Positions 23,753 to 50,262 of a stretch of DNA of 64,000 nucleotides are shown piece by piece. A program made the position numbers and the translations under genes. The stretch is taken from NCBI GenBank assembly GCA_018343915.1, contig JABRWF010000003.1, positions 186,001 through 250,000 on the forward strand, in the 5' to 3' direction. Each line of letters opens with the position of its first letter. Position 1 is the first letter of the stretch. A model generated the notes under the pieces. The model was given only the letters and a program-made list of their open reading frames with translations. It was not told where the DNA came from and searched no databases. The DNA comes from Agroathelia rolfsii (taxonomy: Eukaryota > Basidiomycota > Agaricomycetes > Amylocorticiales > Amylocorticiaceae).

Positions 23753-24841
23753 GCGAATCGTTTTTTTCTTTCATTCATCAAGCTTCATTGCCTTTTTGTG
23801 TTCGTTGGCATCGCTTGGCTGGCGATCAATCAGCTCATCAGGAAGTTATGACCTTGTGAGCAATGAGTGCCATTCAATCTTCTCCACTACTATGCATTTT
23901 TGGTCTTTCATCTCTTCTTTTTTGTCTCCTTGTCTGCGTTTGTGCGCATGCCATTCTTATTCTCTTGATTATTATCTGCGTCAGTATTGGTTCCCATCCC
24001 CACCCACACTCTCCCATCTACATTCCACGCCGGGCTTGCTTTCCCTATCGCCCATCGCCCATCGCCCCTCTTTTTCTCTTGCGAATCATACCATATCACC
24101 TTGTGCTTTAAAACGACCTTTTCTTTTCTTTACTCCCTCCCCCCTCATTCCCGACATCCATCCCTCGAGCATCATTTATCACGTATTCACATCTTTTCTT
24201 TCACCTCTCCCCATCCACGTTTATAATTATCTTTATCTTGTCATCATTATCGGGTTCTCTGCCTTCTCTTTCTGTACCTGCATCCTTTGTGTCTTGTCAT
24301 TACCAACCCCCTCCCCTCCCATTTCCCAAAATCGCCATCTACTATTTTTCTTTTCTTTCTCCAGTTGCTTATACACGCGCGTGACTACTAGCATCTCTGT
24401 ACACACATCTCCACATTTCTATGTACCATATAACACAATTATACCAACTATATGATAGACATCATCATTTAATTTATGGCCGAATATCTTTTTTGTGTGA
24501 TGTTTGTCGATTTGGTTGCATCTAGCTGTCCGAACTCTCGGAGTTTGAACACTGGTGTATGTAGGTGCTGCCAGTCTCTTTGTTCGTTTCCTCGCATGCA
24601 TCCATGTCCGTTTCTTCACATGCATGATGTATATCTCAGCTAAATGCATACAAACATTCGTCAGGGGCTCTTCGGTATTGTATTTACGATAAAACAGTGA
24701 ATATATGCGCTTTGATTGGAGTGTACTATGACCATAAAAGAATCTACACAAAAAAATTACTGCAGTTCATATTCCCCATTTATCTCGAAGATGTAAATCA
24801 ACGAGAGGTTGCATGATTGGACGACGCCCATATTCTTTAGC
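23753..24841. other. intergenic, pyrimidine-rich 3' flank
   Basis: About 1.1 kb between convergent stops. 23760-24420 is strongly T/C-rich on +, giving a long but low-complexity open frame that I do not call. The segment near 24630-24740 resembles 26870-26960, so the 3' flank is part of the tandem NmrA duplication. Confidence 0.5.
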
Positions 24842-26111
24842 TCAGGCCAAAAGAGGAGACCAATCCTCCTTGGCAAAATATTCCTCTAGAGTAGTCACTT
24901 GTCCTTCTAGTCCGAACTATGAACAACGATCGCCGTCAGTCAGTAATTAGTTCTTCAACTTGTCCACTCACGTCTTTGGGGCGAAGTACATTCGGCACTC
25001 CTCCATCAAAGCCAAATTCTGCTGCGAAACGTAACACATCGGCAGCATTGCGCCCCCTCCTAGGGGGAAGGCTAGCGACGAATTCTTCGACGGTAATCTC
25101 CTTGAAGCGGGCAGGCTTGCCCACGATCTTCTCCCACAGCTCGGCATACACTCTCCATGTTACCTCGGATCCTACGCCGAGAAGGACAGTACCTCCTGGG
25201 GCCTTGAATAACGCGCGCACGAACTTGCCGGTGTCGCTGACGACATCGACATGATAGGAGATGGTATCCGCTCCGACACAGAGACGGAACTCGAAAGTAC
25301 CATCTTCTGCCTGTAAAAAAAGAAAAGAAAAGAAAAAATGACGGTAAGGCGTGGTAACTAAAAAGAATGTGAGATGTCTTCAAAGGCTTTGTTTGCTCAC
25401 CTTTACAGGCCCAGACCCTGGAATTACCCTCCAGTTGTTCATGAACAGCGGAAGCTGCAAGTATCCCGTCTTCTTGGCCAGCTCCGGGTGTACGGAGCGG
25501 ATGTATGCACTCACGGCCGCCTTGGCGTCGAAGTGGAATGCATGGCTGTACTTGCCTCCACTGATCTCTTTCACAGCAGCCAGCTCGGACCACACAAAGC
25601 GCTCCAGGGATGTATTGGCAATGGCAGCCACGGCATCCACAAGCGTCTTTCCGCTTGAGGTTTCCATCGCTTGAATGCGCTCATGGAAGTCTTCACCGAG
25701 TTTGGTGAAATCACCGCCTACGCGGGCCACCTCGCGCTTGACGATGCCTGGGTAATCGGTCATACCAAACACGACATTTGCGCCCTATACGGAAGAAATA
25801 TGTCAGGCTTTCATTGTTGATCTAAGTTGTGTAATGTCAATCACACCTTGAATGCACGGTGTAGAGACTCGATGTCATCGATATCTCCTTTGACTATTTC
25901 GACTCCTTTTGCCTGTAAGGCTTTTGCTGCATCTTTGCTGGGGTCACGAGTAATAGCCCGAACGTTCCACTTCAAATCCGGATCGTTCAAAAATGCATCG
26001 ACAACTGAGCCGCCCTGTGATTTCTTGTTAGTAGTAAGTAAGAGACGAGGTATTTTTCTTCTCATTAACCTGTGAGCCTGTTGCACCCAAAACGACAATA
26101 GTTTTTGACAT
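24842..26111 (-). CDS. NmrA-like family NAD(P)-binding protein, copy A, 335 aa
   Basis: Atypical short-chain dehydrogenase of the NmrA/HSCARG type; members act as redox-sensing regulators or as oxidoreductases. Model: complement(join(24842..24916,24972..25310,25401..25784,25847..26014,26070..26111)); introns of 55, 90, 62 and 55 nt. The N-terminus carries the Rossmann motif VVLGATGSQGGSV, interrupted by intron 1 inside the glycine-rich loop, then AITRDPSKDAAKAL (dinucleotide specificity region) and VKGDIDDIESL. FVWSELAAVKEISGGKYSH lies where the catalytic region of related enzymes would be. It is the first of three tandem copies with identical exon architecture; copies A and B are both 1008 nt in coding length. 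Confidence 0.86.
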
Positions 26112-27147
26112 GTTTTACACTAAAGTTAGAGTGCTGAAATCAAGGAAAGATTCATATGGCTACTGATGGGGATTCTCCGTGAATTACTTACGAGGATCCG
26201 TTTGTTTTTATAAGTTCGGTTGGATGGTGGCATTTATATTCACAACTGCCAGTGAAATTGATAAGTCGCGGGTTCTACGACTGGCGCTGACACATCTCCT
26301 GAACCGGTAAACTCAAATATACTCGCAGCATTAGAATCGCACACCATGAGCTGGAAACTAAGGCCTATACTTGGGTGCCCATCGCTACACCGCGGCCACA
26401 CATATACTTGGACATAAAGCCGGTCGCTTTGGTTTGCGAATCAACCGATGCTGCATCGCACTCTTACAAACCCAGATGACACTTGATGAAAGCACCAGTG
26501 TGAGAATCAGCGCAACTCCTCCAGGTGGGAATTAGTAATATCGTGGAATGCTTCCGAAGAAGCTTTCAGACTCAGATAGCCCAAGTCTAAGTACTGATGA
26601 AATGCTGCATGTCATACTAGTAGTCTATGTTTAATGAGATCAAAACTGAACGCCTGGTTAAGCGTTCTATATGGAAACCAAATTCTTATCATGCATATTT
26701 CAGATTTTGCACGAATAATAGGAGATATGGATGACTCGGACTTGCTCAAACTTGCCGCTTCAAACTCTTTAGCCGTGAATGATTCAGCATTTGCATCGAG
26801 CTCTGGTTCTTTGTTTGTTTTATCATCTCTATCAAGGACTACTTCTCCATATACATAACATTAATCTCAGCTAAATGTGTATTTGCATCACTCATGGGGT
26901 TCTAAGACTTGTATTTAGAGGAAAATGGTGAATATATGCGTTTTTGTTGCAATGTGTTGCAAGGTTATATGAACATCGATATAACATGTTGTATATGTGA
27001 AGGAAAAGCAGTGGAGAAATGGAAAAATGTACAGAATGAGAAACTGTAGTAGACGTAATTATTGAACCCAGATATTTCTAACTAGTAGATCAATCACCGC
27101 TCCACATTCCCCTTTCTCAAAGGCACATAATAGCAAGACTGCAAAAC
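26112..27147. other. spacer between NmrA copies A and B with duplicated upstream block
   Basis: It holds the promoter of copy A. The block 26246-26600 is recognisably repeated upstream of copy B (28576-28880), and 26870-26960 repeats the 3' flank of copy A (24630-24740). No gene is seen. Confidence 0.6.
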
Positions 27148-28401
27148 TCAATCCAAGAGAGGGGACCAGTCCTCCTTTGCGATGTATTCCTCCAGGGTAG
27201 TTACTTGACCCTCTAACCCAACCTACAAACATCATTGTTATAATCCAATAATTGACCTAATTTTTCTCTAGTCCACTCACATCTTTGGGACGAAGTACAT
27301 CTGGCAGTCCTCCATCATAGCCAAACTCGGATGCAAAAAGTAACACATCGGCAGCATTACGCCCGATCCCTTGAGGAAGCCTAGCGGCAAACTCTTCGAC
27401 AGTAATCTCTTTGAAGCGTGCAGGCTTGCCCACAATCTTCCCCCATAGCTTGGCATACTCCCTCCATGTTACTTCGGATCCTGCGCCTAGCAAGACAGTA
27501 CCTGCCGGTGCCTTGAGTAATGCGCGGACAAACTTGCCGGTGTCGCTGACGACATCGACATGGGGGCAAATAGTGTCTGCTCCAGCACAGAGGCGGAACT
27601 CGAAAGTACCATCATCTGTCTGGGAGAAAGATAGTGATAAGCCATAGCATTGAAAAAAATGCGATTTCAGACGCTTTGCCGACTTACCTTTACAGGTCCA
27701 AATGCAGGAATCCACTTCCAATTGTTCATGTACGGTGGAAGCTGCAAGTATCCCGTCTTCTTGGCCAGCTCCGGGTGTGCAGAGCGGATGTATGCGCTCA
27801 CGGCCGCCTTGGAGTCGAAGTGGAATCCATGACTGTACTTGCCTCCGCTAATCTCTTTTACAGCAGCCAGCTCGGACCACACGAAGCGCTCCAAGGATGT
27901 GTTAGCAATATCAGCGACGGCATCGACAAGCGTCTTTCCACTCGAAATTTCCATTGCTTGGAGGCGCTCGTTGTAGTCTGCCCCGAGCTTGGAGAAATCA
28001 CCGCCTACACGGGTCAACTCACGCTTGATGATACCTGCGTAATCGGTCATGCCAAATACGACATTTGCGCCCTACACGGAAAGTAATATGTTAGGCTTAC
28101 TATTGCCAATCCAGATTGTGAAATGTCAATCACACCTTGAATGCACGGTGTAGAGACTCAATGTCGTCGATGTCTCCCTTGACTACTTCGACCCCTTTTG
28201 CTTGCAAGGCCTTTGCAGCGTCTTTGCTGGGATCGCGAGTGATAGCCCGAACATTCCATTTGACTTCTGGATCGTTCAAGAATCCATCGACAACCGAGCT
28301 GCCCTACAATTTCTTATCAGTATAGAACACAATAATAGGATTTTTAGTTTCTCATTAACCTGTGCACCTGTTGCACCCAGGACAACAATGGTCTTCGACA
28401 T
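27148..28401 (-). CDS. NmrA-like family NAD(P)-binding protein, copy B, 335 aa
   Basis: Model: complement(join(27148..27222,27281..27619,27688..28071,28136..28303,28360..28401)); 1008 nt, exon sizes equal to copy A exon for exon. Rossmann motif VVLGATGAQGSSV again split by intron 1; ITRDPSKDAAKAL and KGDIDDIESLHRAFK are almost unchanged from copy A. Differences include PHVDVVSDTG where copy A has YHVDVVSDTG. No disabling change is visible, so it should be functional. By its closeness to copy A in coding, intronic and flanking sequence it is the most recent duplicate pair. Substrate or partner is unknown. Confidence 0.86.
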
Positions 28402-29339
28402 TTTCAATGCTGGGATTTAGGTGTGAAGTTCAAGAAAGCTGTGCCACAGGTATTGCTAGTTTGAGGATGATAGCGATACGATGAAATTTGTGTAGTTATG
28501 GCACTGATGGGAGGCTCTTATGGGGATCCGTCTGATGGGCTTGGTTATATCAAGGTATTGATTTTATACCAGTAGCTGCCAGTGCAACTAGTAGTCGCAT
28601 GCTCTGCGGCTAGCGCTGACATATCTCCTGAACCGGTAAACTCGAGTTAAACATCATGAACTGGAAATTAAGATCCATACTTGGGGATTGATTACTATGC
28701 CACACCTCCACGTATACTCGCATATAGAATTGATTGCTCATCAACTGATGTAGTATCGCACTCTTACGGACTAGAGTGACAATGCCAGTAGCGCGAGAAC
28801 CAGCGCAGCTCCGTTACCGGTATTTGGGAATTAGTAATGCGATGGAATGCTTCCGAAGGGGATTTCAGGCTCAGACAGGTGTTACACACACAGTGTATTT
28901 GCCCTTCGCTGATCGGCAAATGGGCCTCAGCCAATTAGATGGCTGTTTTTTTATCTGTTAATGCAAAGATCATTTGAAACCCCCTGCCGTGACAGATTAC
29001 ATTCCGCACCGGCGTTCAGTTACATCTGCTGATAGTCATTTTAGGGGCAGTCTAAATGTTTTATACCCCTTTTCTCTCTGTGTATTGGAAGATCCCACCA
29101 GCGAAGAAAACATTGAAGATCGAACCTGGGTGTCAATTAAACAATTGCCAGCGGCGTCATCAGTGTGTTTTACACATTGATTCAAATTTGACAAGCACTA
29201 CAAGTTGTCTACAACTACATGTAGTATCAACAAGATATTCCATGCCTTCACGCAATTCATGATTAATCCAACCCAAGATTAACAAGACACTGAGATGAAG
29301 GAAACTATAGGAAATATTCTCTAACTCAATCCTTTGCAG
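28402..29339. other. spacer between NmrA copies B and C with duplicated upstream block
   Basis: Promoter side of copy B. The block 28576-28880 is homologous to 26246-26600, including a shared core at 28612-28650. Further right (28960-29330) nothing is recognised. Confidence 0.6.
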
Positions 29340-30623
29340 TTATATCAAGACAGATGACCAATCTTCGGTTGCAAAGTATTGTTCCAGCGTGGTTACTTGT
29401 CCTTCCAACCCAACCTGTGAAATTCGAACCGTCAGTTACAAGTCAAAACTAGTATTTCTAACTGGATGGCAGTTCCTATCTTTGAGATGACTTACATCCT
29501 TGGGCCGAAGCACATTTGATTTCCCGCCGTCCCAACCGAGTTCATCTGTATACAACATCATCTCAACCGCGTTTCGACCAATTCCGAGTGGGAATTTGGC
29601 TAGTATCTCCTCCTCGTTGGCCACTTTGTAGCGCGCAGGCACACCGACAACCTTCTGCCAAAGCGCGGCGTATTCTCTCCACGACACTTCTGACCCAGCA
29701 CCGACAAGTATGGTACCTGCAGGAGCTTTTACCAGCGCACGCACAAATTTTCCGGTATCTCTATGAGCGTCAACATGCGGAAAAAGCGTATCCGGTGAAG
29801 CGGTGAGTCGGAATTCATAAATACCATCGTCCGCCTATAGAGATGCGTCAATAAGATACACTGCCAGATTTCGCCAGATGTAATAGTCATATCAAGTTCT
29901 CACTTTGATAGGTACGAACGCTTTGACCCATTTCCAATTTGACATGTAAACTGGTAATTGTAGGAACCCTGTTTTATTGGCCAGTTCTGGATGGGCAGAG
30001 CGAATATATGCGCTCACAGCGGCCTTGGAGTCAAAATGGAGCACATTGCTATACTTGCCCTGGCTATTTTCTTTGACTGCAGGAAGTTCAGACCAGACAA
30101 AACGTTCCAGAGTAGTGTCTGCAATTGCGGCTACGGCATCTACGAGCGTCTTGCCGCTTGAAGTTTCTAGGGCTTCGACATGCTTATGGAAGTCGTCACT
30201 AGTGAGAATAGCAGGATCATTGCCTTGGCGGACTAGCTCTCGTTGAATTATGCCAGGGTAGTCGGTAACGCCGAAAACGACATTCGCGCCCTTGAAAAAA
30301 AAAATCACAGGTGGGTATCACAAGATGTTGATGTACACAAACGCTCCTACCTTAAATGCACTATGCAATGACTCGATATCGTCGATATCTCCTTTTACAA
30401 CTTCAACTCCCTTTTCTTGTAGAGCCTTTGCGGCATCTTTAGTAGGATCGCGAGTAATGCCACGAACCCTCCACTTTGTTTCCTGATCATGCAAGAATGC
30501 ATCCACAACCGAACCGCCCTGTAAAAAAATCATTTTGGTATGTGCACATGAATGCCCATAGGGCAATGATGATAAACCAACCTGGGCTCCCGTAGCGCCA
30601 AGAACAACGACGGTCTTAGACAT
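29340..30623 (-). CDS. NmrA-like family NAD(P)-binding protein, copy C, 336 aa
   Basis: Model: complement(join(29340..29414,29496..29834,29904..30290,30351..30518,30582..30623)); introns of 81, 69, 60 and 63 nt, 1011 nt coding. Same five-exon layout as copies A and B, with one extra codon in exon 3. The start at 30623 (MSKTVVVLGATGAQ) is chosen because it aligns with the other copies. Conserved segments include ITRDPTKDAAKAL, VKGDIDDIESLHSAFK, VVFGVTDYPGIIQREL and FVWSELPAVKENSQGKYS. It is clearly more diverged than A is from B, so it is the older member of the array. Intact throughout. Confidence 0.85.
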
Positions 30624-38806: not shown

Positions 38807-39627
38807 AGGGCTTACAGAAAATTGTTTTCTTGGATGACGTTTGTTTTTCATTCGCTTTTGCCACTCACGCATATTTTTTTTTCGCTATGGTAGCCATGAA
38901 TGGGATGGTATAGGATGGTACACTATTGTGTTTTCGCCCTTCCTCTTCGGGATCGTTACGCGTCCATTTTTCCTCTCGCTTTCAAAGATAGGGTCTTTCT
39001 TATTTTCATTTTATTTTTCATTTTTCTTGCTTTTATTCCTATCCTTTTCATGAATTGGTTTATCAGATCAGATGGTGGTGTTACCAGTATGTAAGATCAT
39101 GCATACCTACGTGTACTTCATAATAATGGTGTAATTTTCCTTGATTATGTTTTCTCCCTCTCTTTTCTTGGCTTTTACTCTTATAATTGTATGAATAATT
39201 GGTCGAAACTTCAACCCAATTAAAGCAATTCAGCGGCAGAGAGATGAGTTATGATGCGAAGAATTGATGATTTGTGCACGTGACTTGCCCTTATCTTGCA
39301 TGCACTCTCACATTTTTGTCTTTTGGACGGTTAACAGTTTGTTTGTGATGTGAACCCATGACTATTAGAGTGCTTGGAGTACACATGCAGGGTCAGCATT
39401 CAATGATGAATCACCCTACGGTCCGCCTTAATCATCTTATGACTACGAAACCCGGTAGCAGGAGTAGCAGTATTATTGATAAGTGAATGACAACAAGAGT
39501 AATATCATGATAGGTGAATATAAAGCAGAACATAGATAAGAGTAATATACGAATAAAAAGAACCCCTGGAGATTTCCTTATTGCATACCGGTAGCCGCAT
39601 CTTTAGAAATTTGAAAGGAAAAAGATA
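38807..39627. other. intergenic; left edge of the duplicated MDR block
   Basis: The left part is T-rich (3' flank of PP2C). From about 39389 onward it is homologous to 43448-43675, marking the start of duplication unit 1 and the MDR copy 1 promoter. Confidence 0.65.
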
Positions 39628-41016
39628 ATGGTACTGCCGCCGACGCAAAGAGCACTCTTCCTTCGCGAGCCCAAGGGTGATTTTGTCCTGGGCTCGAGAG
39701 AAATCAATAGGCCGGGGCCGGGAGAACTGCTTGTGAGAGTCGTTGCGGCGGCGCTGAACCCGGTCGATTGGAAGATACGCAAATATGGAGTATATATTCA
39801 GGTGGGATTCAAATCGCTAGCTATCCGTACGAGAGAAGGAATTTGAGCATCTAAACATGATTGTATGCGTTTTTTCTTCATAGAAATATCCCACTGTTCT
39901 TGGAGCAGATTCAGCGGGAATCGTAGAAGAGGTCGGCGAAGGCGTGACCGAATTCAAAAAGGGAGACCGTGTGTAAGTCGTCGGTTTCTAAAACAAGAAA
40001 AAGAAATCAGCTTTCAATGGCCTGAGAGGACTATACAGGCTGCATCCCGGTAGATACGATAGCAACAAGAATGGGGTATTCCAACAGTATGTTATTGTGC
40101 CAAGCGAAATCGTGGCCAAGGTGAGCACTATTCCTAATATTCAAGTCAGAAATAGTAGGCTGAGCCAGGCATCTATTAAGGTCCCGAGTAATATATCAAT
40201 GGAACAAGCTGCATCGATCAGCTCTGGCGTAGCTACCGCAGTTGTGGGGCTCTACAACAACGTCCTGGGCGAGGGTCTGGGTTTGAAGGCACCCTGGGAC
40301 AAGGGTGGTAGAGGATATTATACCGGTCAACCTTTCGTCGTCAGCGGTGGGTCCACGTCTGTGGGACAATTCAGTGGGTGTATTTGTTATTATCAATGAC
40401 TGTTGGAATTAATAAGCTGTCCAACATCAGTTATTCAGTTTGCGAAGCTATCGGGTTTTTCGCCTATCATTGCAACTTCGTCAGCAGTCAACTTCAATCT
40501 GCTCAGGAACCTAGGGGCGGATTATGTCGTGGATAGGCGAAATATGTCCTCACTGTCGTCAGAGATTGCCAAGGTAACAGACAAACCGATCTTGTATGCA
40601 TATGATGCCTGGGCGTCAGCAGAAACGCAACAGGCGCTATACAATGTTATGGAACCGGGCGGTCATCTTGTTCTAGCGCTACCCAGCGAAATTAAGAACA
40701 AGGAGGACAAAGATGTAGAAGTGCTTATGATATACATCAGTCTGTACAAGGACGAGCAGAGGCAGATTGGCGCATCGGTGTATCTTCATTTGGGAGAGTT
40801 GTTGAGAACAGGAGGCATCAAGGTAGGAGCCATATTGCTCTCTGTAAGCATGTCCCTAACTTAGTCTTTTTGGCGCTGGTACTGGATCAGCCCACCGCAG
40901 TTGAATTCATCCCTAATGGTCTGTTGGGTATCTCTGAGGGACTGGCAAGGCTAGAGGCTGGTACTGTTAGCGGGAAAAAGCTCATAATCAGGCAAGATGA
41001 TACGCCAGAGGCCTAA
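39628..41016 (+). CDS. medium-chain dehydrogenase/reductase (enoyl-reductase-like), MDR copy 1, 351 aa
   Basis: Model: join(39628..39801,39884..39972,40039..40120,40181..40373,40431..40822,40891..41016); five introns, 1056 nt. GroES-like N-terminal half: [47 protein letters not shown] and the QQYVIVPSE strand. The nucleotide-binding half has VVSGGSTSVGQ (glycine-rich loop), [28 protein letters not shown] and a C-terminal GLARLEAGTVSGKKLIIR. There is no Cys cluster for structural zinc, so it is a zinc-free NADPH-type MDR like the fungal ToxD/enoyl-reductase-like proteins. The substrate is unknown. It is intact, whereas its duplicate in unit 2 (43676-45804) is a pseudogene. Confidence 0.84.
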
Positions 41017-41544
41017 TAGTGTTATACGCATGAAATGTAACTTGTGTGAGCATGATTATGCAAATTTCTCGAGTAAAGTGGTTAAATGCGAAGTGTCGGT
41101 GCCAACTGCAGGATGTTATTAAGCTTACTGTGGTTTGTTGACGACAGCCAGCAGGATAGCGCCGACGTCGGAAGACGAACTAGCGGCAGCTTGCAGATTG
41201 AAGCTCATCATCGCGGGTGTAATTTGTTTTATCAACGTTATTACGTAGGCATGGTTGTCTTAATCCTCCTTTAATGCTAATTCAGCTGACTTGCCGAGAG
41301 GGTGCTCAATGTTGGGCGAAGCGGACCAGAGTACGTGTACTCTGCGGCATGCGATTATGCATTCATGTATACTCGCTCGTCCCCGGAATTTTAGATCTTG
41401 AGGCAAACTGCTTCTATACCCGACTTACCGGTATTATGAGGTGCTTTGGGATATAAGAATGCTGCCATCGAGTTCCAAAATGTCCCAGCATCGAGCACCC
41501 TCTCCTCAGCACAATCCAACCAAGCAGCCTCCTAACTTACAAGA
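41017..41544. other. spacer between MDR copies 1 and 2
   Basis: 528 bp, collinear with 45805-46354 of unit 2. The last ~100 bp before the ATG at 41545 is nearly identical to the equivalent part of unit 2. No gene seen. Confidence 0.6.
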
Positions 41545-42889
41545 ATGTCTCAGCAAAAGGCTTTGATCATCCCTACTCCCCGCGCCGATTTTGAGGTTAC
41601 GACCAGGGAGATTGAAAAGCCCGGTCCAGACGAACTCCTCGTCAAGATTGAGGCAACCGCCCTCAACCCTGTTGATTGGAAGATCCAGAAGTGGGCCATC
41701 CTTGTCGAAGTATGTACATGCAGAACTACCAAAACGGTGATTTTATCTCATGTTATGTTATTAAAAAGAATTATCCAGGTGTCATTGGAATCGATGTCTC
41801 TGGTATCGTTCATGAAATCGGTGAAGGCGTCACCACCTTTAGCAAGGGTGATAAAGTGTAAGATTGGTCAAACCCATTACTTTGATCTTACCCTTGCATA
41901 TTCATTTGTATCCCAGATTCTTTTCCGGAGACTTCTTCTGCACTAGATACGCTGGATATCAGCAATATACCATCGTACCCGCCGAAATCTCGGCCAAGGT
42001 GCGTGAAGACCTATCCACAACTGTACTATTGACATGGCTAATTTATATGTCTACCACAGATTCCCAGAAATATCTCTTTCGAGGAGGCAGCCGCCCTCAA
42101 TGTAGCTGCTTGCACCGCCGCGGTGTCCCTCTACCAAACCGCACCAAACGGTCTTGGTCTGAGTGAGCCCTGGCTTGAGGGCAACATGGGCATTTACGCC
42201 GGCAGGCCCATCTTCATTCATGCAGGATCGTCAACCGTTGGTCAAATCGGTAAGTTCCTCCTCGCTCCCAAAGCCTTTTGAAACTTGAGGTTAGCTACAT
42301 ACTCATACAGCCTCTTCAGCCATTCAATTCGCCAAACTCTCCGGCTTTTCACCCATCATCGCCACCTCCTCCCCTGCCAACTTTGACCTCCTGAAGGGCT
42401 TAGGCGCGACGCACGTCATAGACCGCAACGCACTATCCACTCTCCCTGCTGAGCTCGCTGCTATCACAAGCACACCCATCCTGTACGCCATCGACGCCTG
42501 GTCCTCGCCCGAGACACAGCAGGCCGTATACAACACCATCGCGCCCGGCTCCAACTTCGCCATCCTGATGCCCAAGACGATCAAGGAGGACGCGGCCAAG
42601 AATGTGAGTGTGTTCGAGATCACCTCGAGCGTACATGCGCCAGAGAACAGGAAGATTGGTGTGAGTCTGTACTCGCACTTGGAGAAGCTCATCGGTGAGG
42701 GGATCGTCAAGGTATTGTGCTTTCTTTTCATCTCTTGTTTTATTGGGTAATTAACGGAGAAAATGATAGCCTTTGCCTGTGGATGTCCTCCCTGGTGGAC
42801 TGGCCGGTGTTTCAGAAGGATTGGCCCTATTGCAAGCTGGTAAAGTCAGTGCAAAGAAACTTGTCGTGAGGCCACAGGAAACTGTATGA
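41545..42889 (+). CDS. medium-chain dehydrogenase/reductase, MDR copy 2, 345 aa
   Basis: Model: join(41545..41709,41769..41857,41917..41998,42060..42249,42320..42711,42770..42889); introns of 59, 59, 61, 70 and 58 nt, 1038 nt coding. Landmarks: [88 protein letters not shown], the nucleotide loop [47 protein letters not shown] and KLVVRPQE. No zinc ligands are seen. It belongs to the same family as copy 1 but a different subgroup, so each duplication unit carries one of each type. Intact. Confidence 0.86.
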
Positions 42890-43675
42890 AGGATAAAAGT
42901 GGATCCACGTGATTCATTGAGACACCTCTTACAAGGAATTGCATACCCATTAGTACATAATTAACTATAGCGTAATAAGAATAACATCATTTCAATTTCA
43001 CAAAGGCCTACTATCTTTACGGCAAAGTGTTGAGGAATGATCAGAGTAGATCTCGAGTAGAAGCACATATGCACATTGTTTGAGTCCCAAGTGGTCAGGA
43101 TGTGCCCCTTTGGCGGCGAGAAAAGCACACATGTATACTGAGACCTACATCCAAGAGTAATGTTACAAGATAACGACATTATGAATCACGTAGTGAAGCA
43201 TCCAAGTGGTAAAAGAAAAATTCAGCTATGCACAACAGTAACGGCAGACCAGAGCATCCCAAAACTGTGTGAAATCCATGTGGAAGCCCTTGCACTCTAT
43301 CCATTCGAGTCGTTTCCGTGCATGGAATTTAGATTATCAGAGGGGCCAAAGTTCCAAGCTTATGCTCCCGTCCTCACAACGGTCGGCAGTCAACAGTTAC
43401 ATAAACCCATGATATCAATGGTTGAGTACTTGAAATATCCTGTAGGATCAATTTTCAGTGATAAATCAGCCTACGGTCCACCTTAATCGTCCTATAATTG
43501 CGAAATTCATTAGCAGGAGTGATAGTGTTATTAATAAATAAATAACACCAGTAACATCATGATTGCTGAATATAAGACAGAACATAGACACAAGTAGTGC
43601 ATGCATTAAAAAAACCCCTGAGAATTACCTTATTGCATACCAGTAGCCGTATCCTTTGAGACTTGAAAGACGACG
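42890..43675. other. junction between the two duplication units
   Basis: 42960-43250 is homologous to the 3' flank of MDR copy 4 (47760-48110). 43259-43447 is an F-box-gene tail relic. From about 43448 the sequence restarts with the unit promoter, so the tandem joint lies near 43440-43450. Confidence 0.7.
43259..43447 (-). pseudogene. relic of the last exon of the F-box/LRR gene
   Basis: On the minus strand this aligns with the final exon of the F-box gene at 48126-48383: the gene segment ending FHMDFTQF is mirrored by a segment reading FHMDFTQF at 43260-43285. Upstream, the relic keeps the EDGSI-equivalent stretch but has in-frame TGA and TAA where the gene reads through. It also lost the stop codon (TGA to TGG) and is cut off at the tandem joint. 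It therefore marks how far unit 1 reaches into the neighbouring gene. Confidence 0.8.
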
Positions 43676-44118
43676 ATGGGACAGCCGCCGATGCAAAGAA
43701 CACTCCTCTTTCCCGAGCCCGGGGGGGACTTCATCCTCGAGTTAAGAAAGATTAATAGGCCCACTGGCGGTCCGGGAGAGCTTCTTGTTAGCGGTTGCGG
43801 CGGCGCTGAACTCTGTCGGCTCAAAGATACGCAAGTATGGGATATATATCCAGGTATAATTTATATTTCTGGCTGTCAGTACGAGAGAAGGAAAATGAAC
43901 GTAAAAACATGATTACGCGCGAAGGAGAGGGTCTTCAAGTTCCTTTTGTAGAATTATCCCACTGTTCTTGCAGCAGATTAAATGAAAATCGTAGAATAGC
44001 CTGAGGTTGGCGAAGGCATGATGGAATTCAAAAAGGGAGACTCTGAGTAGGTAGTCGTTTTCTAAAACAAGAGAAATGAACCGGGTCTCAATAGCCGGAG
44101 ATAGGTATACAGACTATA

Positions 44119-44580
44119 TCAATAATGAAACGACACCTACACAAATGTCAAAATAAATGAGATCATCATTAAATTTTGATCCCGTCATAAAGTTGCGCAT
44201 CTGCTACATAAAAATCTCACCATTTCCGTTTGTATCCATTGGGTAAAATAATTTGAATATTTGGACCCGGGTGTTTGAGCCGCCTTGGCAAGCGTTGTTA
44301 TTCCGTTCATGTCTTAGTACTGCACTCCATCCTGATTTCTCTTTATGTAATTTTATTGTTGGCTTGGTATATAGACAAGTAGATTTTAATTGATATATGC
44401 TATGCATTTATCACCCTTATATGTAGTCAATCAAGCGTTTTTTCCCAAGTTAGGCTGCGTGCTGCATTGAATTTTATCACCCACAGTTGGCAGTATGCCG
44501 CCTACGGTAAGTTTATTCGGCAACAAAGTGCTATGATTGTTTTTTTAACTTTTTCCGTGCGAAGCACGGGTAAATGCTTG
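44119..44580 (+). mobile_element. non-autonomous Helitron-like element, 462 bp
   Basis: Borders were set by comparing the pseudogene with its intact paralogue at 40031-40060. The host reads ...CTATA, then the insert starts with TC (44119-44120) and ends ...GTAAATGCTTG (44580), and the host resumes with T. So it inserted between host A and T without a target duplication, as Helitrons do. A perfect 6-bp stem hairpin (CCGTGC-GAA-GCACGG, 44555-44569) stands exactly 11 nt before the 3' end. The end is CTTG, one base from the canonical CTRR. There is no coding capacity, so mobilisation would need an autonomous partner elsewhere. Confidence 0.8.
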
Positions 44581-45353
44581 TTCTACTAGATATGATGACA
44601 ACACGAATGAGGTATTCCAGCAATATGCTATCATACCAAGCAAGATCGTAGCAAAGATAAGTATCACACTCAACATTTAATGCTAGAAAATGATCAGTTG
44701 GACAGGAGATCTATTCAGGCTTCAAATAATATATCAATAGAGCAAGCTATATTGGTCAGCCTGAGCTCTGGCGTAGCTATTGCAGTTATGGGGCTCCACA
44801 ACGACGTGTGGGGCAAGGAACTGTGTTTGAAGGCACTCTGGGACAAGGGTGGTAAGGGATATTCTACTGATCAACTTTTGACTTTCAGCGGTAAATTTAT
44901 CTCTGTGGGTCAACTTGGTGAGTATCTTTGTTGTCGGATGAATAGTTGGAATTACTAAGCTGTCGGACGTTAGTCATCCAGTTTGCGAAGCTATCGGGTT
45001 TTTTTGCCTATCATCGCAACTTCGTCAGCAGCCAACTTCAATCCACTCAGGAACTTAGGGGAAGATTATGCCGTGGATAGGCGTAATCTATCCTCAATGT
45101 CGTCAGAGATCGCTAAGGTAGCAGACAAACCGGTCTTGTATGCATACGATGCCTGGGCGTCAGCAGAAACGCAACAAGTGGTCATATTATTCTAGTGCTA
45201 TCCAGTGAAATCAAAGAGAAGGAGAATAATTATATATAGGTAATTATAATTTACGTCGGACTGTATAAGGACAACCAGAGGAAGATTGGTGCATTGGTAT
45301 ATCTTCATTTGGGAGAGTTGCTGATAATGGGAGACATCAAGGTACTAGGAGCT

Positions 45354-45623
45354 TGTGACGGCTAGTCACGAGATCGAAACAAAGAAAATAGTAGGCACAA
45401 GGGTTGGATTCGAAACTACTGTATCGCACACAAAGTAGGCAGGTATTTATACTAAAATACCGTCTCCTCCCAAGCCCATCGACCACATGCAACAGATAAG
45501 AAATACGACCGAGTATCACTGGGCAGAACAGAATATGAGATATTGACGAATGCCCGCTACCCTGCAGCGCGGCAAGACCGATCCGACGTGGCGGGCTGTG
45601 ACGAGTAGCGCTGCACCGTTACA
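45354..45623. mobile_element. solo LTR (Ty3/gypsy-type ends), 270 bp
   Basis: The element begins TGTGACGG (45354) and ends CCGTTACA (45623), an 8-bp terminal inverted repeat with one mismatch and the TG...CA ends of LTRs. It is flanked on both sides by GAGCT (45349-45353 and 45624-45628), a perfect 5-bp target-site duplication. The paralogous intron 5 of MDR copy 1 (from 40823) lacks it. No internal retrotransposon sequence is present, so it is a solo LTR left by recombination. The superfamily is inferred from the end sequence and TSD length. Confidence 0.82.
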
Positions 45624-45804
45624 GAGCTATATCGCTCTCTATAGGCATGTCTTTGACCTTGTCCTCTTACTGCTGGTACTGGATCAATCAAACTCGTCCC
45701 TGATGATCTGTTAGGTGTTTTTGAAGGACTGGCTAGGCTAGAAGCTAGAACTGTCGGTGAAAAAAGCTCATAATAAAAAAGATGATACACTAGAGGCCCA
45801 ATAG

Positions 45805-46354
45805 CGTTACAAGCATCATATGGAATGTGTATGTGAGCATGATTATGCCAATTTCTGGAGTAAAGTGGTTAGCTGCGAAGAGTCGGGGTTTACCATAAGA
45901 TGTTACTAAGCTTGCCTTGGTTTGTCGGCAGCTTCAGTTGCAGCTTGAAGCTCATCAGTGTCGTAACTATACACAGTCATTGTCTCATTGATATCATTAC
46001 GTAGGTATGATTGTCTCTATGGGCTTTATTGGTAATCCGATTGACTAGTCATCCTGTCCGCTCTGGTGCGGGATCTGAATCATCCAGCGGACGCTAGTCG
46101 CTAAACATTGGGAAAAGTATACTAGAGTACGTGTACTCAGCACAGCACGCAATCATGCAAACATGCTGATGATACATGTGTATCCCCTTGCCTTCCCCAT
46201 TTGGACTCTGAGGTAGGCTACCCTGATGCCTGACTTACCAGTATTGTGAAGTACTTTGGGATATAAGAATGCTGCCATCGAGTTCCAAAATGTCCCAGCA
46301 TTGAGCACCTTCTCCTCAACACAATCCAACCAAGCAGCCTCCTAACTTACAAGA
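45805..46354. other. spacer between MDR pseudogene and MDR copy 4
   Basis: 550 bp, collinear with 41017-41544. Contains the MDR copy 4 promoter; the last ~100 bp is nearly identical to unit 1. Confidence 0.6.
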
Positions 46355-47697
46355 ATGTCTCAGCAAAAGGCTTTGATCATCCCTACTCCCCGCGCCGATT
46401 TTGAGGTTACGACCAGAGAGATTGAAAAGCCCGGTCCAGGCGAACTCCTCGTCAAGATTGAGGCAACCGCCCTCAACCCTGTTGATTGGAAGATCCAGAA
46501 ATGGGGCATCATTATTGAGGTATATACATGCAGAACTATCGAAATAATAGATCTATCTTATTTCTTTATCTGAATAGCAATATCCAGCTGTCCTTGGAAG
46601 TGATATATCTGGTATTGTTCATGAAGTCGGCGAAGGCGTCACTACCTTTGCCAAGGGTGACAAAGTGTAAGTCCAGTCAAACCCATTGCTTTGATCTTGC
46701 ATATTCATTGTATTATTGGGATCTCAGATTCCTTCCCGGAGCATTTCACAATAGAGGCGCCGGATACCAACAATACACCATTGTACCTGCCGAGATCTCA
46801 GCTAAGGTGCGTGAAGTCATATCCGTGATTACAATATCGACATAATCAATTCACATACCCATTACAGATCCCCAACAACATTTCATTCGAGGAGGCAGCC
46901 GCCGTCAATGCAGCCGCTTCCACTGCTGCTGTGGCCCTCTACCAAACCACTCCCAACGGTCTTGGTCTAGGCGAGCCATGGCTTGAGGGTAACAAGGGTA
47001 TTCATGCTGGCAAGCCTATCCTCATCCATGCCGGATCGTCGACCGTTGGTCAACTCGGCAAGTTCTCCTCACTCCTCAAGCCCCTTGAAATTGGCTACTT
47101 AATCATACTACCTCTTCAGTCATTCAATTCGCCAAGCTGTCTGGCTTCTCGCCCATTATCGCCACCTCCTCCCCCGCTAACTTTGACCTCCTCAAGAGCC
47201 TGGGCGCGACGCACGTGATAGATCGTAATGCACTGTCCACCCTCCCCACTGAGCTTGGTGCCATCACAAGCACACCCATCTTGTACGCCATCGACGCCTG
47301 GTCCTCGCCCGAGACGCAGCAGGCCGTATATGATGCCGTCGCGCCCGGCGCCAACCTCGTCCTCATGCTGCCCAAGGCGATTGAGAAGGAGGACGTGGCC
47401 AAGAACGTAAATGTGTTCCAGATTGGCTCGAACGTACATGCGCCGGCGAACAGGAAGCTTGGCGTGAGCCTGTACTCGCACTTCGAGAAGCTCATCGGCG
47501 AGGGGACTATCAAGGTAATTTGCTTTCTTTCAATCTTTTATTATTATTGCGTTACTGACAATAAGAGAAAATGATAGCCTTTGCCTGTGGAGGTCCTCCC
47601 TGGTGGACTGGCTGGTGTTTCAGAAGGGCTGGCCTTATTGCAAGCTGGTAAAGTCAGTGCCAAGAAGCTTGTCGTGAGGCCACAGGAAACTGCATAA
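46355..47697 (+). CDS. medium-chain dehydrogenase/reductase, MDR copy 4, 345 aa
   Basis: Duplicate of MDR copy 2. Model: join(46355..46519,46578..46666,46728..46806,46868..47057,47120..47514,47578..47697); 1038 nt. Exon 1 differs from copy 2 only at a handful of bases, most of them in the last codons. Exon 3 is 3 nt shorter and exon 5 is 3 nt longer than in copy 2, keeping the same total length. Intron 4 starts with GC (CTCG|GCAAGT at 47058) where copy 2 has GT (ATCG|GTAAGT at 42250), so a GT-to-GC donor change occurred after duplication. Nucleotide loop [12 protein letters not shown] and KLVVRPQE are conserved. Intact if the GC donor is used. Confidence 0.85.
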
Positions 47698-48125
47698 ATA
47701 ATAGAAATGGAGTACGTGATATATTCGGACACCTCGTACAAGGAATCACATACCCATTAATTTATAATTGAGCATAAGGTAATAAGAATACCGTCTATCC
47801 CGAAATTCTTGTCTTCGATTCTTACAAAGATAGCCTGTCTTTACGGCAGAGTGCTCAGAATCAGTTGGCGCAGATCCCGAGTAGAAGCACACGTGTACAT
47901 CGCTTGAGTCTCAAATGATCGAGATAGGTCCCATCGGCAGCGAGAAAAATACATATGTATACTAAGATCTACACAAAGTAATGTTACAAGATAACGACAT
48001 CATGGGTCATGAAGTGAAGCATCCAAATGAAAAAAAAGAATAAGACAACGAAACCGATGAGAAAAATGGGAAGCTACAGAAAAAGCCAACCATGCACGGC
48101 AGTGACGACGGTAGACCAGACCCTC
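47698..48125. other. convergent 3' flanks (MDR copy 4 / F-box gene)
   Basis: 428 bp, homologous to 42890-43258 of unit 1. No gene seen. Confidence 0.6.
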
Positions 48126-50262
48126 TCAAAACTGTGTAAAGTCCATGTGGAAGCCCTCGCACCCCATCCATTCGAGCCACTCTTGCGCGTGGAACTCGGA
48201 TCGCCAGAGAGGCCAGGGTTCCAAACCTATGCTCCCATCCTCCCGCCGGCTGACAGTCATATATTGTGTCCCGATCAGAACAGCCTTGACCATGGGGAAC
48301 CCGTGCTTGACAACGTCGTGCGCAGAGAATGAATTGCGCATACTAATGAGGCGTAAATCTGGAGGGACCCCTGTTTTCAATTGCTAAAGAAAGAACGTTA
48401 GACACGGTCGAAGAGTGACGAAGCGATATGGTATATACCTCAAAGAAGGTATCATAAGGCTTGCTTATGCGCATTGAGTCTAAGCTTAGCGAACGCAGAG
48501 TACGGGGCAACAGCCATGACGCCAGGTTAGCTTTGAGCGTCTTGGGGTACGTGATGCACAGGTTTTTCAATCCTTTGATGTGTGGTAGCAGGCCCCAGAC
48601 GGCCTCGTCAAAACCAACGGCCTTCTGTACAGTTTCGGAGTCGCAGACGGTAAGCCGCAGTGTCCTAAGCTCACGACCACGCAAAAAGTCGCATATAGCT
48701 GGAAACAGCTCTGGGTCGGTCACATTGCGGTGGATACTGAGCACAGCAAATGAGAAGTGCTTCAAGAACGGCAATGCTTGGAGATTATCTTTGAATTGAG
48801 GTGAAGCATAGCATTTAAGCACACAGCGCATGCGAAGATATTCGAGCTGCCGGCCGTGTTGGAGAACAAGAGCAAATGCCTGGCTGTCAGCAGGCACTTG
48901 GGCATGGATATCGAGATGGGTCAGGTGGCGGAGGGCGAGTTCGGTATTGAAAGACCACATCTTGTTGTCAATGCAGATTCGTTGCAAGGATGCTTGATTC
49001 TGCTCGAGCAATTCTCGAATAAATGCAGGGTTGGTGTTAGTCCCGTAATAGGAAAGGTGCTTCAGACTGCGGAACGCAGGTAAAGAAAGTTCTGCAGAGT
49101 GGTCATCACAACGATATACACTATTGTGTGTTGATGAGGATTAGACATCTAGAGAAAGAAAAAAACAATGAATGGCGTACTTGACTGATAGACCGACAAG
49201 GCGCGGGACGGCTGCTTGGAATATATCCAGGATAGGAATAAGGTCATTAAAGTTAGCAGCGACATGCAGATTCTTGAGGTTTAAGAGCTGTGGAACGGCA
49301 TTCGCAAGCATCCCTGAAACATTATGAGTCTCCACTTCAAAACAAAGTATATTTTGAGCATACCTGTTTGGAAGGCAATAGAGGCATTGTCCTTGGTCAC
49401 CGCGTGTATGCGCAGTGTCTTAACCAAGCTAGCAAACTTGGCATCCGTAATGAAGCGTGTGAGGATATCTGCCGTCCTGGATGCATGGGGCCCGTCAGGG
49501 TCTCTACCCGAAGGCTCCATGTCCTCATCGTTATCCGCATCATCTTCACTTGGTATCCAGTCGCTGAGATGCAAGTCAACTGTACGGAACAGAAGCTGGC
49601 TCGCAATCGCCGACAGAGCATTAGGCACCCAGAGCAACGATAGAAGGTCTCGACGAGGCAAGAAGAGTGCAATCTCTCGCCAGACTTCTGTTGAGAAATT
49701 AGGGGTGGAAACATTGATGGTTTGCTGGTAGATGTTGCAGATGCCGCGATAAGCATGATAAAACATGAGGCCTAAACAAACAATTTCACCTCGGCCCTTT
49801 GAACGTGTGATTGTTGCAAAGACTTGGCTTCAAGATTGTCAGGATCTAGTGCGAGTGCAGCTTCAATGTCTAGAGGAGCATTTAGATATAAATTTCGTGA
49901 ATCCAAACTCTCTAATAAAATACCTTGGTCAGCCGCAGGTCGATGTCCGGCAGCGACGCGGACCTTGGCACGAATAATGTGCGCCTTAACAATCATATCG
50001 GTAGGGAGGGGAACTTGTAGGCATGACTGGACGGCATTTTCAACCACGACACGGTAGTTCCTATGAATATAATCAAAATGAAGTGCAGTCAACAGCCAAG
50101 GATGCATGCCGATGGCGCATGGTGGCAACTTGAGTGTACTTACGCATCGAACTGTAATTGCTGTAATGCAGAGAGTAGCAAATTGACTTTGCTTTCGTTT
50201 GATAAGCACGAAGTAACATCACGAATGCTAGCATCCAAGATCTTCGGATTGAAGATGTCCAT
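48126..50262 (-). CDS. F-box protein with N-terminal TPR-like region and LRRs (Dia2/Pof3-like layout), 589 aa
   Basis: Predicted substrate receptor of an SCF ubiquitin ligase. Model: complement(join(48126..48383,48439..49120,49181..49313,49364..49724,49790..49869,49924..50060,50144..50262)); six introns of 50-83 nt, 1770 nt. Residues ~35-110 form a TPR-like helical repeat (NYRVVVENAVQ, AHIIRAKVRVAAGH, AALALDPDNLEAKS). The F-box is at about 118-160 (FSTEVWREIALFLPRRDLLSL, VPNALSAIASQLLFRTV). Leucine-rich repeats follow (LLNLKNLHVAANF, ALRHLTHLDIHAQV, LKNLCITYPK, LRSLSLDSMRIS). TPR plus F-box plus LRR is the layout of yeast Dia2 and fission yeast Pof3, which act at replication forks; orthology is not proven. 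Its last exon lies inside the right end of duplication unit 2, and a dead copy of that exon is at 43259-43447. Confidence 0.8.

Follow-up and report, generated by a model that had tools for sequence, protein, structure and literature searches.

The window analysed here is the whole stretch of 64,000 nucleotides of Agroathelia rolfsii DNA that opens above. Comparison of the window with itself reveals a tandem duplication of about 4 kb (39368-43392 versus 43424-48259), the pieces of which are 73-79% identical. The gene in the first copy carries a zinc-binding dehydrogenase domain (PF00107) and has an open exon of 153 aa. In the second copy (43424-48259, forward strand), the equivalent exon has stops and a frame change. 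This broken dehydrogenase-like gene holds the insertion studied here, which bears out the view of the original prediction that the host is a pseudogene. The second copy contains a further insertion of about 275 bp, at 45345-45623, with ends TGTGACGG...CCGTTACA; flanked on both sides by GAGCT, it appears by eye, from a gap in the self-comparison, to be another solo-LTR-like element. Elsewhere in the window, between 24841 and 30522, lie other diverged direct repeats (24841-26579, 27147-28878 and 29624-30522; pieces 67-80% identical).

The insertion occupies positions 44119-44580 on the forward strand (462 bp) and reads directly as TCAATAATGAAACG...GGGTAAATGCTTG. The paralogous gene copy is unfilled and reads ACAGGCTGCA↓TCCCGGTAG on the same strand, the arrow marking the insertion point between 40044 and 40045, 6 bp into an exon according to splice signals judged by eye. 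The filled copy reads ACAGACTATA↓(462 bp, TCAATA...GCTTG)↓TTCTACTAG. Its two sides have the same lengths as in the paralogue and a duplication is absent. The flanking host bases are A44118 and T44581, corresponding to A40044 and T40045 in the paralogue, and this empty site fixes both borders to the base. The element starts with TC and terminates with CTTG (44577-44580, forward strand). A terminal hairpin with a stem of 6 bp, CCGTGC-GAA-GCACGG (44555-44569, forward strand), ends 11 nt from the 3' border. Folded as DNA, the last 46 nt reach -6.6 kcal/mol (z -2.7), and 4 of 200 shuffles fold at least as well. The empty site, the termini, the hairpin, the A and T flanks and the lack of a target duplication were all part of the original prediction of a Helitron-like insertion, and all are present in the sequence.

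Relatives of the element were sought in the genome that holds the window, 37.67 Mb in 8 contigs (positions are given below as contig:position; the host A and T beside the window copy are C3:230118 and C3:230581). Its genes mark this genome as fungal, and among the capped candidates the REV1-tail relatives with an organism name all come from Mycena species, at 41-45% identity, which makes Basidiomycota probable. DNA of the element matches at least 49 places, a lower bound as 40 of the 47 candidates were scored, and the possibility that the element stands alone in the genome is thereby contradicted. With up to 3 mismatches, its last 26 nt have eight matches, itself included, versus none in a reversed control. 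Ten copies with both ends placed form family A: the window copy, L009, units A and B of L010, L012, L015, L019, L033, L060 and L062. As a multicopy Helitron family would predict, they have varied interiors and AT insertion sites, and their lengths run from 462 to 691 bp. The CTTG end had been described as either decayed or variant. Decay of this one copy is ruled out, since CTTG also ends four other family-A units and the units at C5:3638017 and C6:3770578; CTTG is also printed for HELPO2 of Pleurotus ostreatus.

A looser pattern for the 3' end, CCGTGCNNAGCACGGGTNNNNGCTNG, has 44 genome matches with up to 2 mismatches and none in a reversed control. It uncovered two more families, B and C, with the same TCAATAATAAAA start and the same type of terminal hairpin. 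Units of family B measure 367 to 473 bp; four of them are 95-96% alike, a 367-bp variant occurs three times at 95-98%, and others are more diverged. Family C, of about 920 bp, has ten near-complete copies including the query, to which the others are 93-98% identical. Other ends among the 44 belong to further groups.

A second empty site is provided by a pair of loci on C1 and C2. L010 contains two head-to-tail family-A units, and L023, in a diverged repeat of the surrounding DNA, is without both. L023 reads GAATGTCTGA↓TTAGGTTG, with the right flank also given as TTAGGTTGAAAACC, and L010 reads GAATGCCTAA↓(unit A)(unit B)↓TCAGGTTG, the right flank being also given as TCAGGTTGAAAACC. The two units thus share one A↓T site with no duplication, and the two outer borders of the pair are fixed independently. 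Among the copies read, none has a target-site duplication or different borders.

The bases next to the ends were then tallied across copies. On the 3' side, 41 of the 44 pattern-found ends were read, and T follows in 40 of them, at a position of which the pattern asks nothing (P about 2e-22 at the T frequency of the window, for ends that are not fully independent, C6:1363992 and C6:1371636, for example, sharing identical flanks). For the listed 3' ends of the three families, T comes next in 35 of 37 (among them C3:1493617, which reads CTAG↓T), the exceptions being C6:3757374, where the next base is C, and C6:3775033, where it is A, at a head-to-tail join. The 3' end with a C behind it is a family-A end and speaks against the A↓T rule. 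The last four bases at the 41 ends are CTAG (28), CTTG (5), CTCG (3), CTAA (2) and three single others, a tally affected by the pattern itself, which favours GCTNG. On the 5' side, 40 ends were picked by hand from 148 loose candidates, mostly chance matches, and a few known units, with C6:3971172 included. Left out were C5:893183, C5:3638567 and the second L011 unit, which have damaged starts, and also the upstream unit of L019 (C6:3770234, preceded by A), the family-C element C6:3719325 and several weaker matches. TC starts the window copy and most of the 39 listed ends. The preceding base is A in 26 cases, G in 13 and C in one. Eight of the 13 G-preceded ends are exact joins to the 3' end of another element. 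The other five and the C-preceded end are neither A-flanked nor exact joins: C1:5082782 resembles a decayed join, C3:1493606 starts 11 nt behind a family-C element, and three G-preceded ends are without a clear partner.

In the terminal hairpin, 93.3% of the cells are paired, a value far above that of slid registers (18-50%) and not above that of column shuffles (93.7%). None of the six pairs has both sides changed among 39 pattern-chosen ends (35 distinct), a set in which covariation could hardly show, and covariation was dropped as support for the hairpin.

The exact joins deserve separate consideration. In 8 of the 40 examined 5' ends, the unit directly abuts the 3' end of another, with zero bases between. 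Two family-A units meet at C2:4501928. At C6:3770579, a unit with B/C-like ends is followed by a family-A unit with three extra bases in its start. A variant of B precedes B at both C5:2735196 and C3:2700547, C precedes a B variant at C6:3718390, and B precedes C at C6:3703897. Finally, two B-like units are joined at C6:3775034, with AA as the first two bases, and a B-like unit precedes a C-like one at C2:3524811, with TT for TC. All eight upstream ends finish in CT(A/T)G, and in each of them 4 to 6 of the 6 stem pairs are present at the expected distance. Four further ends that passed a loose rule for the last four bases (CTAA or CTTA, 3-4 stem pairs) were not included. A short pattern for the join, allowing up to 2 mismatches, was abandoned as a means of counting, as it returned 21+31 matches versus 12+11 in the control, and only joins with both ends read were counted. 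A segment of about 92 kb on contig C6 (3703475-3795752) holds four of the eight joins, along with several Helitron copies.

If forty insertions struck A↓T sites at random in the presence of forty residents, at most about 0.0003 joins would be expected, taking the A↓T frequency from the window. Even when the targets are limited to A↓T sites whose 3' side is AT-rich, about 144,000 remain, by extrapolation from the window. The eight joins are perhaps not all independent: L065 and L079 share their unit order, with upstream units 96.5% and downstream units 90.5% identical. Joins were sought in the same orientation, and the claim that one orientation prevails is based on a single search for head-to-head pairs, in which one pattern with up to 3 mismatches had no genome-wide match; this search lacked a positive control, and decayed ends would have escaped it. 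Bats and maize are already known to contain Helitrons arranged head-to-tail, and it is the frequency of this arrangement here that is unusually high. The maize report describes the G/T join of one pair of different Helitrons, proposes for it an explanation by the host A plus the T of the resident, and cites the bat cases (PMC2267711). Here, the likeness lies in the join itself and the difference in its extent, with joins at a fifth of the examined 5' ends of one fungal genome and in several family combinations.

Two accounts of the joins have to be weighed. The pairs could stem from rolling-circle read-through or be concatemers of one element, as opposed to serial insertion at the 5' border of a resident. 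A Helitron circle does contain an exact CTAG↓TC join (PMC4778049), and the shared order of two B subfamilies in L065 and L079 could reflect one dimer moved whole. However, a concatemer of one element should consist of like units, and the joined units mostly differ, which argues against this origin: over 262 nt, the members of the L065 pair are 70.6% identical and those of the L079 pair 68.3%, while other joins associate C with B, B with C, or two A units that differ from each other (71% and 89% identical to one query). We therefore regard read-through or concatemers as an improbable source of the joins, though one that keeps some weight. The excess of joins, together with the mixing of families, suggests either strong targeting to the 5' ends of residents or the joining of the 3' end of one element to the nicked 5' end of another. 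We tentatively propose, as a possibility less likely than not, that the 5' border of a resident is a preferred landing place, where RepHel, by nicking the resident 5' end, would join the incoming 3' end, of any family, to the resident TC. If this were true, such joining would resemble circle closure, but between two elements, and would yield mixed chains in one orientation and possibly composite units.

As for the nature of the element itself, 44119-44580 is, with a probability of about 95%, an old, non-autonomous member of family A, a canonical (Helitron1-type) family of Helitrons in this fungus. The placement follows from its target, start, hairpin distance and end. Insertion takes place between A and T without duplication, as seen at the two empty sites and in the flanks of the 3' and 5' ends tallied above; the start is TC, and the hairpin lies 11 nt before the 3' end, within the 10-12 nt of Helitron1. 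A strict CTRR terminus is absent from the window copy and present in the wider group, in its CTAG and CTAA ends, and CTTG is accepted for HELPO2. The Helitron identity proposed originally is thus supported by the recurring ends, the A↓T sites and the second empty site.

It is, by the same evidence, very unlikely that the element is instead of the Helitron2/Helentron type, with asymmetric inverted repeats and another target. Most fungal Helitrons identified in PMC5148889 do cluster with Helitron2, and the final 90 nt of one family-B copy (L070) and one family-C copy (L044) contain a stretch that agrees at 10 of 12 positions with the reverse-complemented first 12 nt, in AT-rich sequence where chance may suffice. 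Yet the Helitron1 set described in the same source (A↓T target, TC start, hairpin 11 nt from the end, CTWG terminus) is the one found here; the target is not the T-rich one of Helitron2/Helentron (TTTT↓T/C or TT), and no terminal inverted repeat was found in the window element, the best match being 7 of 12. FoHeli of Fusarium oxysporum is likewise a fungal rolling-circle element, and tandem copies are mentioned for Metarhizium acridum alongside it; it is of Helitron2 type, with another target and other termini (ends ATTTT or CTCCTGT) (PMC5148889).

A close likeness by description is with HELPO1 and HELPO2 of Pleurotus ostreatus, which have an AT target, a T[C/G] start, a subterminal hairpin and a CT[A/T]G end, with CTTG in HELPO2 (PMC4289320). 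An LTR/Gypsy insertion within a Helitron is also mentioned there, to be compared with the LTR-like passenger described below. In contrast, HELPO elements measure 1.5-13.7 kb and include putative autonomous copies, whereas the units found here measure 0.37-0.95 kb and no RepHel was found. Helraiser/Helibat1 of Myotis shares the TC...hairpin...CTAG organization, the AT target in AT-rich surroundings and circles with an exact CTAG↓TC join (PMC4778049; PMC5876387). The likeness is one of features, Helraiser being a reconstructed active mammalian element with RepHel.

A single paralogue pair cannot separate insertion from deletion, but the idea that no transposition occurred and that 462 ancestral bp were cleanly deleted from the paralogue can be dismissed almost outright, given that these borders recur at many other sites and that the empty site of a second locus pair is likewise A↓T.

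The genome matches of the element fall into three parts: a 5' module, a 3' module and, in the middle, a sequence found mostly on its own. The 5' terminal module (TCAATAATGAAACGACACC...; 44119-44252, forward strand) has counterparts elsewhere in the genome that are 74-90% identical. The 3' terminal module (44480-44580, forward strand) is matched over its full length by unit A of L010, and its last 51 bp are also found in L015 and in unit B of L010. The stretch between them, about 225 bp with approximate borders at 44255-44479 (forward strand), was at first a candidate Helitron module and was rejected as such. It corresponds to a repeat, about 226 bp long and bounded by TGTT...AACA, found at 25 places outside family A, three copies of which match the passenger. 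Three of the 25 are unreadable at one end, and in 14 of the 22 used the two flanks agree at 4 or more of 5 bases, as expected of a 5-bp duplication (shuffled pairings give a mean of 0.9 and a maximum of 5 in 2000). Because of these flanks, added to the TG...CA ends, the middle part qualifies, from its sequence, as an independent solo-LTR-like repeat. Within the elements, GGCCCAT precedes the passenger in L012 and CCCAC follows it in the window copy and unit A of L010, which is likely to represent a 5-bp duplication with one change.

This repeat makes up about half of the 462-bp element and is carried by 8 of the 10 family-A units, so one might hold that an LTR retrotransposon spread the copies and that their Helitron-like ends are coincidental; there is next to no likelihood of this, since ends of this type are also found on L019 and L060 of family A and on the three tested family-B units (L070, L068, L073), none of which matches the repeat, and since TG/CA borders and 5-bp duplications of their own mark the outside copies. 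The one tested family-C unit does carry it. In L044, of family C (positions 1880-2809, C5:3586129-3587058), the LTR-like repeat is split by about 300 bp of a further repeat, which also stands alone at other loci.

The passenger site adjoins an internal hairpin, GGGCCGTGC-NNN-GCACGGCCC, with the same core as the terminal hairpin. It occurs at 21 places, mostly within family-A and family-B units (L065 398-425 and 750-777, L062 2016-2043, and 18 further places), and at least 11 have all 9 pairs, a conservation that is partly selected as the places were located by pattern. The internal hairpin could be an older terminator that was bypassed. The window copy is without it, and L009 retains one further on; in both, the sequence linking the 5' module to the LTR is missing. 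Sequence comparison indicates that the window copy, which also contains a solo-LTR-like insert, owes its small size to an internal deletion.

No RepHel-encoding relative sharing the ends of the element was found: profiles PF14214 and PF20209 had no match in the genome, in searches that left introns unmodelled and in which neither profile matched any control genome. Profile PF05970 (PIF1) gave four matches at two loci, rejected as Helitron helicases; their translations and a shared kinase-like neighbour, with names assigned by eye, point to the host pif1 gene and a segmental duplicate of it. The pif1-like gene and its kinase-like neighbour stand on two contigs, in L058 (C4:2080000-2089500) and L059 (C5:2221000-2230500), apparently through segmental duplication.

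The following scenario may be proposed. Work on RepHel and Helitrons describes joined-end circles and insertion between A and T (PMC4778049; PMC5876387). A RepHel acting in trans would have copied the element by rolling-circle transposition, nicking at TC and displacing the strand as far as the hairpin and CT(A/T)G, where it would stop. A joined-end circle would then form, and the copy would be joined between the A and the T of the target. An ancestor would have acquired a retrotransposon solo LTR beside the internal hairpin, which then spread with it, and in the lineage of the window copy the sequence separating the 5' module from the LTR would have been deleted. This copy would have landed in one member of the tandemly duplicated dehydrogenase-like gene, either intact or already broken at that time. 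At the joins, the host A and the first T of the resident would recreate A↓T, so that a second element could land exactly upstream.

Canonical CTTG/CTAG Helitrons, besides Helitron2 types, have thus been active in this fungus, and the paralogue supplies a clean control for their borders. The excess of exact mixed-family joins makes an old question testable, namely whether such pairs are rolling-circle concatemers or arise because insertion is directed to the 5' ends of residents. The one point that specialists might pursue is how often mixed head-to-tail joins occur.
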